34,383 nucleotides of DNA from Acidobacteriota bacterium (lineage in GTDB: Bacteria > Acidobacteriota > Terriglobia > Acidiferrales > UBA7541). The notes beneath the pieces are model-generated. The model was not told the origin of the DNA, did no database searches, and saw nothing but the letters and a program-made list of their open reading frames with translations. The stretch's first letter is position 1, and every line of letters starts with the position of its first letter. The stretch covers positions 1-34,383 of the forward strand of contig QHYU01000135.1 in assembly GCA_003224235.1 (NCBI GenBank). Reading direction: 5' to 3'. The position numbers and the translations under genes were made by a program. Positions 27,430 to 31,959 of the stretch are shown one piece after another.

Positions 27430-27792
27430 CTATTTCTCCAGCGACGCGCCGCAGCGGGTGCAAGTGCGTATCCGCTTGGGCTTGCTGCCTTCCGGTAGCG
27501 GCTTGTGGCCCACACGCGTGGGCTTGCCGCATCCCGGGCAGATCACCAGCACGTTCGAGATCGCCAGCGCGCCCTCCCGCTCGACGATTCCACCCTTGAT
27601 GTTCTTCGACGGGTTGGGGCGGGTGTGGCGCTTGATCATGGCCGCATGCTCGACCGTGACCGTGCGCTTATAGGCGTCCACCGAGAGCACGCGACCCTCT
27701 TTGCCTTTGTCGCGCCCCGTCATCACCCGGACCTGGTCGCCCTTGCGAATGCTCACGTTGTGCCGAATCGAATCTTCTGGGTTAGTTTTCAT
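27430..27792 (-). CDS. rplX: Ribosomal protein L24
   Basis: A 120-residue assembly-initiating large-subunit protein. The KOW motif is [44 protein letters not shown] follows. The C-terminus carries a CPGCG…CTRCG pair, a four-Cys zinc ribbon (C-x2-C…C-x2-C) found in some bacterial L24 proteins. I choose ATG 27792; an in-frame GTG at 27801, overlapping the rplN stop codon, is an alternative. Confidence 0.95.
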
Positions 27793-27794
27793 CG

Positions 27795-28163
27795 CTACCA
27801 CACTTCCGGCGCGAGCGAGATGATTTTGGCGAATTTCTTCTCGCGCAGCTCGCGCGCCACCGGTCCAAACACGCGCGTGCCCACCGGTTCGTTGGCCTCG
27901 TTGATCAGCACCGCGGCGTTATCGTCAAACCGGATATAGGTGCCGTCTTTGCGCCGGTGCTCCTTGCGCGTGCGCACTACCACCGCGCGCACCACTTTGC
28001 CTTGTTTGATCTGGCTATCCGGGGCCGCTTCTTTTACTGATGCGGTGATGACGTCGCCCAGTCCAGCCTTCAGCCCGGCATCGCCGCCCAGTGGCAGGAT
28101 GCACATCAGCCGACGGGCGCCAGAGTTATCAGCCACCGTCAGCCAGGTCCGCATCATAATCAT
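27795..28163 (-). CDS. rplN: Ribosomal protein L14
   Basis: A 122-residue beta-barrel protein at the subunit interface. Key sequence: [15 protein letters not shown], the [33 protein letters not shown] region (key motif [12 protein letters not shown]), [10 protein letters not shown] and [28 protein letters not shown] at the end. Length is exactly that of the family. It follows rpsQ by 59 bp and abuts rplX, the classical order. Confidence 0.97.
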
Positions 28164-29827: not shown

Positions 29828-30340
29828 CTACGTTTTCTTTGGCTTGCCGGCTGGGCGCTTCTGCCCTGCCAGAGCCTTGCGAGCCTTCTTCACTGCGCCC
29901 TTGACTCCCTTGTGCGCTTCGGCCTCCGCGGCAGCCGCCGCGACGCGCTCCTTGGCGGCAACGTGGTGCTCGGCCACGGCCACGACAATGTGGCTGGTGC
30001 GCTTTTGATATCGGAACGCACGGCCCATCGGCGCCGGGCGCAGCCGCTTCCACCGCGGCCCTTCGTTCACAAAGCAACGCGAGATGAACAGTTGATCGAC
30101 ATCCAGCGACGCCCCAGCGTCCTCCGCCTTACGCTCGGCATTGGCGATCGCGCTGCGCAGCACTTTTTCGATGTCGCGCGCCGCGCGCTTTGGGGTGTAC
30201 CGCAGGACCTGCAGCGCCTTCTCGGCGCGCAGGCCGCGGATCAGGTCAATCACCAGCCTCGCCTTCTGCGGCGACATGCGAATGTACCGCGCCATGGCGT
30301 GGGCCTCGATTGTTGGTGCAATAGCGGTTTGCGTGGCCAT
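29828..30340 (-). CDS. rplV: Ribosomal protein L22 with C-terminal extension
   Basis: A 170-residue exit-tunnel protein; the family is about 110. The core has RYIRMSPQKARLVIDLIRG, DIEKVLRSAIANAE and the tunnel hairpin region followed by PMGRAFRYQKRTSHIVVAV, the diagnostic C-terminal motif. After it come about 45 extra residues rich in Ala and Lys (VAAKERVAAAAAEAEAH…RPAGKPKKT). It lies between rpsS (3 bp) and rpsC (9 bp). The extension is probably surface-exposed. Confidence 0.96.
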   Translation of the reverse strand: MATQTAIAPTIEAHAMARYIRMSPQKARLVIDLIRGLRAEKALQVLRYTPKRAARDIEKVLRSAIANAERKAEDAGASLDVDQLFISRCFVNEGPRWKRLRPAPMGRAFRYQKRTSHIVVAVAEHHVAAKERVAAAAAEAEAHKGVKGAVKKARKALAGQKRPAGKPKKT

Positions 30341-30343
30341 GGT

Positions 30344-30709
30344 TTATGCCTTCGGCCCTGTCGGCGGAGCGCCGCCTGCGGCAGGCGCTGCGGGCCCTGC
30401 CCCGGGAGTTGCTGGAGCGCCGGCGGCGCCCGCTGCCCTCTCCAGCGCGGCTTTGACCGCGTGACCCTTGAACGTGCGAGTGGGCGCGAACTCACCCAGT
30501 TTGTGTCCCACCATCTGCTCAGTGACGTACACCGGAATAAACTTTTTGCCGTTGTGCACGGCAATGGTGTGTCCCACCATCTCCGGCAGGATGGTTGAGC
30601 GGCGCGACCAGGTCTTGATGACCCTTTTCTCGTTCCGCGCGTTGAGCGCTTCCACCTTCTCGCGTAGGTGGCTATCGATGAAGGGACCCTTCTTGAGCGA
30701 CCGTGCCAT
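30344..30709 (-). CDS. rpsS: Ribosomal protein S19 with C-terminal extension
   Basis: A 121-residue head protein contacting S13 and the A site. [15 protein letters not shown] is the family start and [23 protein letters not shown] the central signature. The typical length is about 92; here a tail of about 28 residues rich in Ala, Pro and Gly follows. ATG 30709 is chosen because the longer upstream frame runs through the preceding small gene and lacks homology. The ribosome-binding purines lie in that gene's 3' end (8-bp gap). Confidence 0.96.
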
Positions 30710-30717
30710 CGGCTTCT

Positions 30718-31062
30718 CTACTCCTCGACCCGGCGGAGCTTGATCCATTGCGCGCGGCGCATCTTGCGGAAGCCCCGCACGGGCCCCGGCACGCGATGCG
30801 ACAGCGGGCAGAACGGGCAGACGAAGCGCGTCCCTTGCATGTTGGGCATCTTCTCGACCGTCACTACCCAGCCGGGCTTGCACAGCCGGTAGAGAACCAG
30901 TCGCGGCGGTGCTGGCGGAGTCTTCGGCGCCGGCTTGACGGCCTTCGCCAATCGCGCGGCCGCGGCGGACTTGCGCGAACGACTTGCGCGCCGAGCCGTT
31001 GCTCCTGTTGATCTCGATGCTCTCATGGGTGTGCTCTCAAATACCCGCCGCGCCGGGTTCAT
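30718..31062 (-). CDS. Unrecognised small basic Cys/His protein within the S10 operon
   Basis: About 114 residues between rplB and rpsS, where these two are normally adjacent. The N-terminal half is an Arg/Ala/Ser/Pro-rich tail; the C-terminal half is compact: [48 protein letters not shown]. Cys61, Cys82, Cys85 and His89 (C-x20-C-x2-C-x3-H) could bind zinc. Third codon positions are GC-rich in this half, supporting coding. Possible starts are ATG 31062 (behind AAGGGG), ATG 31026 and GTG 31095; I chose 31062. The stop is 8 bp from the rpsS start. I do not recognise the family; a ribosome-associated or RNA-binding role is inference from location and charge. Confidence 0.65.
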
Positions 31063-31137
31063 TTTTGCTACCCCTTCTGAAACCTTCACGTCCACTCTGA
31101 CAAAGACAGTTGCAGGGACGCGCTACAAATTCATGCG

Positions 31138-31959
31138 TCAGGGCTTGCGCCGCTCCACAATCATCTTGCCCGTGCGCCGATTCCTGCGCGTCTTGGCGCC
31201 CAGGGTCGGGAAACCCCACGGTGTCTGCGGGTGATTGCCCTTGACGCGGCCCTCGCCACCACCGTGAGGGTGGTCGACCGGGTTCATTGCCACGCCGCGG
31301 ACCGTCGGACGGCGACCGTGCCAGCGCGTGCGGCCCGCCTTACCGTAAGTGACGTTCTCGTGATCGAGGTTGCCCACCTGCCCGATCGTAGCCATGCAAT
31401 CGAGCGGGAACTTGCGCACCTCGCCCGAGGGCAGCTTCACCAGCGCGATGTCGCCTTCCTTGCTCAGCAATTGCGCGGCACCGCCCGCCGACCGCACAAC
31501 CTGGCCACCCTTGCCGGGAAGCATCTCCAGGTTGTGTACCTGTGTACCGGGCGGGATGTGCCGTATGGGCAAAGCATTGCCAGGGAGGATATCGGCGTTG
31601 CCGCCGGTTTGCACCGTCATGCCGACTTCCAGGCCGACAGGGTGCAGGATGTAGCGCTTCTCCCCGTCGGCGTAGTGCAGCAGAGCCAGCCGCGCCGAGC
31701 GGTTCGGGTCATATTCGATGGCCACCACGCGCGCGGGGATGCCGGTTTTATCGCGGCGGAAATCGACGACGCGGTACTTGCGCTTGTGACCGCCACCGCG
31801 ATGCCATACGGTGATTTCACCATGGGCGTTGCGCCCGCCGGAGCGTTTCTTGGGTTCAGTCAGCGACTTTTCTGGGCGGTCCTTGGTCAGCTCGCTCTTG
31901 TCGAGCATGGTGATGAAGCGCCGCGACGCCGTGTACGAGTTGAAACTTTTCAGTGCCAT
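31138..31959 (-). CDS. rplB: Ribosomal protein L2
   Basis: A 273-residue protein essential for peptidyl transferase and subunit joining. It has [43 protein letters not shown], and the diagnostic [20 protein letters not shown] with the conserved histidine near the peptidyl-transferase centre. Length is typical. It begins 27 bp after rplW and ends 75 bp before the small unrecognised gene's chosen start. Confidence 0.97.

Follow-up and report, generated by a model that had tools for sequence, protein, structure and literature searches.

A conserved Cys/His protein gene between rplB and rpsS as a candidate lineage-specific ribosome component in one family of Acidobacteriota

The window, a stretch of 34,383 nucleotides from the genome of a member of the Acidobacteriota, carries the S10 operon on the minus strand in the order rpsJ-rplC-rplD-rplW-rplB-X-rpsS-rplV-rpsC-rplP and onwards, preceded by a fragment at the window end. 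The order rplB-rpsS is nearly unvarying across bacteria. The initial annotation had noticed an extra frame with three possible starts (102-125 aa) between these two genes, and such a frame is indeed present on the minus strand. It belongs to a real gene, here called gene X, located between rplB (uL2; 31138-31959, minus strand) upstream and rpsS (uS19; 30344-30709, minus strand) downstream. The stop codon of X lies at 30718-30720 and the ATG of rpsS at 30709, leaving the gap of 8 bp (30710-30717) that had been described.

The frame at 30718-31095 offers GTG 31095 (125 aa), ATG 31062 (114 aa), and ATG 31026 (102 aa) as starts. The whole of this frame had been assigned to the gene at first; its stop and reading frame stand, and its longer starts are disfavoured. 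Several relatives lack GTG 31095 and ATG 31062 or have them in another frame, while M-[RST]-[AV]-[TSI] at the ATG 31026 start is found in most of them; therefore, X is best taken as 30718-31026 (minus strand, stop included), and ATG 31026 is the best-supported start. ATG 31062 was considered as the main start and is disfavoured, since the block CCGGCGCGGCGGG is kept as nucleotides with the frame lost in two loci (L017 and L030), and the ATG itself is lost in further relatives. In one genus (g13), the start of X falls in what corresponds to the upstream region (M-x-L-A-R-R).

The 102-aa product is strongly basic, with a pI of 12.0 and a charge of +21.6, and it consists of two parts. The N-terminal tail of 42 aa (30901-31026, minus strand) is rich in Arg, Ala, Lys, and Pro, varies in both length and sequence, and is probably disordered. 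The C-terminal domain of 60 aa (30721-30900, minus strand) carries the motif C-x20-C-x2-C-x3-H, a putative zinc site, and ends in a basic C-terminus, both of which had been read correctly, as had the GC-rich third codon positions of this half (GC3 of 0.92 vs 0.62 in the tail). Low-complexity extensions of similar style, located at the C-terminus, are seen in uS19 (Ala/Pro/Gly-rich) and in uL22 (29828-30340, minus strand; Ala/Lys-rich). A zinc-ribbon-like C-terminal extension with a Cys4 stretch (CPGC...CTRC) is found in uL24 (27430-27801, minus strand).

A conserved nucleotide block (31043-31058, minus strand) lies between rplB and X, with CCCGGCGCGGCGGG at 31044-31057 and a possible ACCCG/CGGGT hairpin. 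It is followed by a GAGAG box (31034-31038, minus strand), which is Shine-Dalgarno-like, stands 7 nt before the ATG, and very often recurs there in relatives. In most genomes, a possible hairpin between rplB and X ends right before the GAGAG box, approximately 7-10 nt from the ATG; in the window it falls within 31034-31058 (minus strand), and it is seen at loci L021 and L096-L129 as well. The window and most other genera have the near-invariant block CC[CT]GGCGCGGCGGG, in which a stem of 4-5 bp is possible and which varies too little for a covariation analysis. This block is lost in three loci (L031, L038, and L045) and absent in genus g13. In genus g6, it is replaced by a 9-bp stem (ACCGGGC-N-GG / CC-N-GCCCGGT) in which both sides have changed at 5/9 pairs. 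The g6 stem has 90.7% of its cells paired, as compared to 25-46% in slid controls, which are the safer comparison. Its covariation score is 0.372 vs 0.201 for shuffled alignments (0/500), a significance that the shuffles overstate because the sequences are related, the leaders were excised by eye, and seven of them were left out (four dissimilar and three of differing length). Folding energies of the leaders are overall unremarkable (mean z of -0.6), and Rfam gave no match for the X leader. A role of CCCGGCGCGGCGGG as a genome-wide element was rejected, as its four other genomic copies have no common context. Overall, the leader hairpin is at most a candidate translational operator.

The distribution of X has a sharp boundary. 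With a 62-aa query, X was detected in 33 of the 60 relatives searched at a domain identity of 67-87%, chance-level matches being left out, including the only match in one further genome; all 33 are members of the GTDB family to which the window belongs (f1; Ca. Acidiferrales/Acidiferrum, 13 genera). The same query also matched 27 public metagenome-assembled genome (MAG) contigs with labels such as Ca. Acidiferrales, Ca. Acidiferrum, Acidobacteria gp2, and Terriglobia. One X-carrying MAG (L048) is labelled Acidipila sp., which is probably a misclassification, and two MAGs have two X loci each on separate contigs (G086 on C33 and C35; G102 on C34 and C63), probably as a result of strain mixture or contamination. 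A profile search covering the order (95 genomes) recovered X in 77 of the 89 genomes of f1 and in 0/6 genomes of the order's other two families, f2 and f3, a match in G014 (E of 0.004) being discounted. Eleven of the 12 f1 genomes without X have no rplB in an rplB search, and the remaining one has an rplB cut at a contig end. As no intact rplB-rpsS junction is assembled in these 12 genomes, X is present in 100% of the genomes in which the locus can be read.

The spacing of the flanking genes agrees with this boundary. The rplB-rpsS interval is 330-673 bp (median 406) in f1; in all six genomes of f2 and f3 it is 0-23 bp, and the two genes adjoin without X. In nine genomes from other families of the class, which also lack X, it ranges from -4 to 37 bp, with one interval of 130 bp. 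In a phylum-wide sample of 396 genomes, only the window itself scored above 24 bits and no convincing relative of X appeared; weaker matches in other Acidobacteriota (up to 24 bits), none of which has rplB nearby, were taken as chance. The suggestion in the initial annotation that the gene is restricted to a lineage is borne out by these results, and so is its expectation that the family would be conserved at this locus and retain the Cys/His residues. The order is rplB-X-rpsS at every locus read, X is never found away from this pair of genes, and the gap between X and rpsS has a median of 7 nt (0-10 nt in 58/72 loci). Distances between X sequences correlate with those between uL2 sequences (Spearman 0.76, 66 loci), as would be expected from vertical descent. 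No relative of X was found in viral contigs, and phage and plasmid records gave only weak matches (E of at least 0.2, covering at most 66% of the domain); a mobile origin from phages or plasmids thus shows no sign in these collections. The simplest reading is a single gain of X at the base of f1.

The domain of X is under strong purifying selection. Each of the 72 distinct loci retains the complete C-x20-C-x2-C-x3-H motif, so that the Cys/His ligands, including the CxxC knuckle, are strictly conserved, zinc binding itself being putative; further invariant stretches are GW, TR-VCPFC, and GPVRGF. The dN/dS ratio of the domain (Nei-Gojobori method) is 0.16 when pooled over 879 pairs with dS of 0.15-1, well below the value of 1 named beforehand as a sign against the gene; the 25 closest pairs among them have ratios of 0-0.19. 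Entropies at codon positions 1, 2, and 3 are 0.40, 0.33, and 1.19, respectively. The tail evolves faster than the domain, yet dN is lower than dS in the pairs compared. With a mean pairwise identity of 0.82, the domain is conserved at the level of its ribosomal neighbours throughout the lineage: similar to uL22 (0.81), uL23 (0.83), and uL3 (0.81), and above uL4 (0.71), with uL2 and uS19 at 0.86 and 0.87, respectively.

Searches of Pfam and NCBIfam gave no match to X above cut-off, those of PHROGs nothing significant, and those of PDB chains, by sequence and by profile, no significant relative. Some members weakly match Zn_ribbon_FGT1_1, DUF7836, DUF7560, and Zn_ribbon_Elf1 (best E of 0.003-0.06); these matches concern a minority of members, fall short of the one cut-off displayed, and are in no case full-length. 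By hhalign, X gave a probability of at most 4% against 20 operon proteins, and paralogy with another protein of the operon was rejected on this basis. Two AlphaFold models are beta-rich and of low confidence (pLDDT of 63 and 69); their comparison yielded Foldseek E values of at least 2, no VIA match, and no fold match at Z of 2 or above. The suggestion of a zinc ribbon accordingly draws on the invariant ligands and the weak profile resemblances. No paper on gene X or on an insertion between rplB and rpsS was found in the literature. None of the libraries searched contains the family; its proposed kind, that of a lineage-specific ribosomal protein, is already known.

Several known proteins may be compared with X. 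In Borrelia, bS22 and bL38 are previously unannotated ribosomal proteins that were found on ribosomes by cryo-EM and mass spectrometry; they are restricted to certain lineages (Borrelia, Flavobacterium), and bS22 and bL37 also occur in mycobacteria (PMC10618245). Similar to X, bS22 and bL38 are small, basic, limited to some phyla, and overlooked by annotation (PMC10618245). They differ in that they have no detectable sequence similarity to X in the PDB chain searches, and X, known here from its sequence, has the CCCH motif, a long tail, and a location in the S10 gene string. Zinc-type ribosomal proteins such as bL36, bL31, bL33, bL32, and uS14 are also short and basic, with Cys/His ligands, and are encoded in ribosomal protein operons or found on the ribosome. 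However, the ligand spacing of bL36 is unlike that of X, and profile comparison of X with bL36, uS14, and uL24 gave probabilities of only 1-4%. The best PDB profile match is eL43 (L37a), a eukaryotic/archaeal zinc-ribbon ribosomal protein, and it spans the VCPFC stretch of X; however, it covers 20 residues with a non-significant E of 0.09, and the remaining Cys pattern differs. The microsporidian msL1/msL2 provide a model case of how the ribosome of one lineage can capture a new protein that is small and basic (PMC10764239), although they are eukaryotic and fold-switching, whereas X retains one strongly conserved domain.

Taken together, operon position, a conservation rate like that of ribosomal proteins, and extreme basicity favour the role suggested at the outset, that of a ribosomal or assembly protein. 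Operon position by itself is no proof of ribosome membership, as secY, adk, and map lie in the same gene string. We consider it rather probable that X is a lineage-specific ribosome component, i.e. a new or permanently associated ribosomal protein, acquired in a single event at the base of f1. The genome encodes all of bL31, bL32, bL33, bL28, bS18, bL36, and uS14, so X is an addition to these proteins and not a replacement, and the idea of X as a substitute for a missing zinc protein among these seven was rejected. A fuller proposal is that X is a new zinc-dependent core ribosomal protein, fixed throughout the family through its insertion into the S10 operon after a single gain, with the hairpin as its own translational operator; for this proposal as a whole we regard the case as evenly balanced. 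A possible mechanism can be described as follows. The three Cys and one His would bind one zinc ion in a small, beta-rich, zinc-ribbon-like fold, and this domain would dock on rRNA, with the basic surface and the Arg/Ala/Pro-rich tail contributing to rRNA binding. The tail may thread into the subunit in the manner of extensions of other ribosomal proteins. Co-transcription and near-coupling with rpsS would keep X stoichiometric, and the hairpin before the GAGAG box may allow X, or another ribosomal protein, to tune the translation of X.

Alternatively, X may not be a stable subunit but an assembly or translation factor that associates transiently with pre-ribosomal particles or the uL2/uS19 region. 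Its place in the same operon, its basicity, its zinc-finger-like motif, and its low-complexity tail would all suit such a factor. However, most assembly factors are encoded outside the S10 gene string, and the conservation rate and universally fixed position of X resemble those of structural ribosomal proteins, so that this explanation seems unlikely. It is less likely again that X primarily regulates the S10 operon as an RNA-binding protein, acting on its own leader hairpin to control downstream translation and binding the ribosome only secondarily. Such a function is in line with the conserved hairpin that immediately precedes the GAGAG box and covaries in g6; however, the hairpin's sequence and size vary between genera and it is missing in the loci and the genus mentioned above, whereas the domain is near-constant. 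Autoregulation by a ribosomal protein would moreover look identical, and the two readings are not exclusive. Slightly less credence still is given to a nucleoid or general nucleic-acid-binding protein placed in the operon for high expression: the tail is Histone-H1-like (Ala/Lys/Pro/Arg) and the pI is 12, but conservation resides in the compact Cys/His domain and not in the tail, and X never occurs apart from rplB-rpsS. A spurious frame, non-coding or decaying, which the lack of any matching database family might suggest, is refuted by the third-position-biased substitutions, the low dN/dS, the intact motif, and the occurrence throughout f1.

Gene X is thus a good candidate for a part of the ribosome that is absent from databases, and its case indicates that S10-operon context together with conservation can reveal candidate ribosomal proteins overlooked by annotation. 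How ribosomes acquire new proteins has been described as unknown (PMC10764239). If X is a true ribosomal protein, it would be a clean and phylogenetically bounded case of a bacterial ribosome acquiring a subunit, with a sharp boundary towards the sister families, an insertion into one of the most highly conserved gene strings of bacteria, and preserved neighbours that make a before/after comparison possible. For the family itself, a soil lineage that is mostly uncultured, X provides a marker gene.
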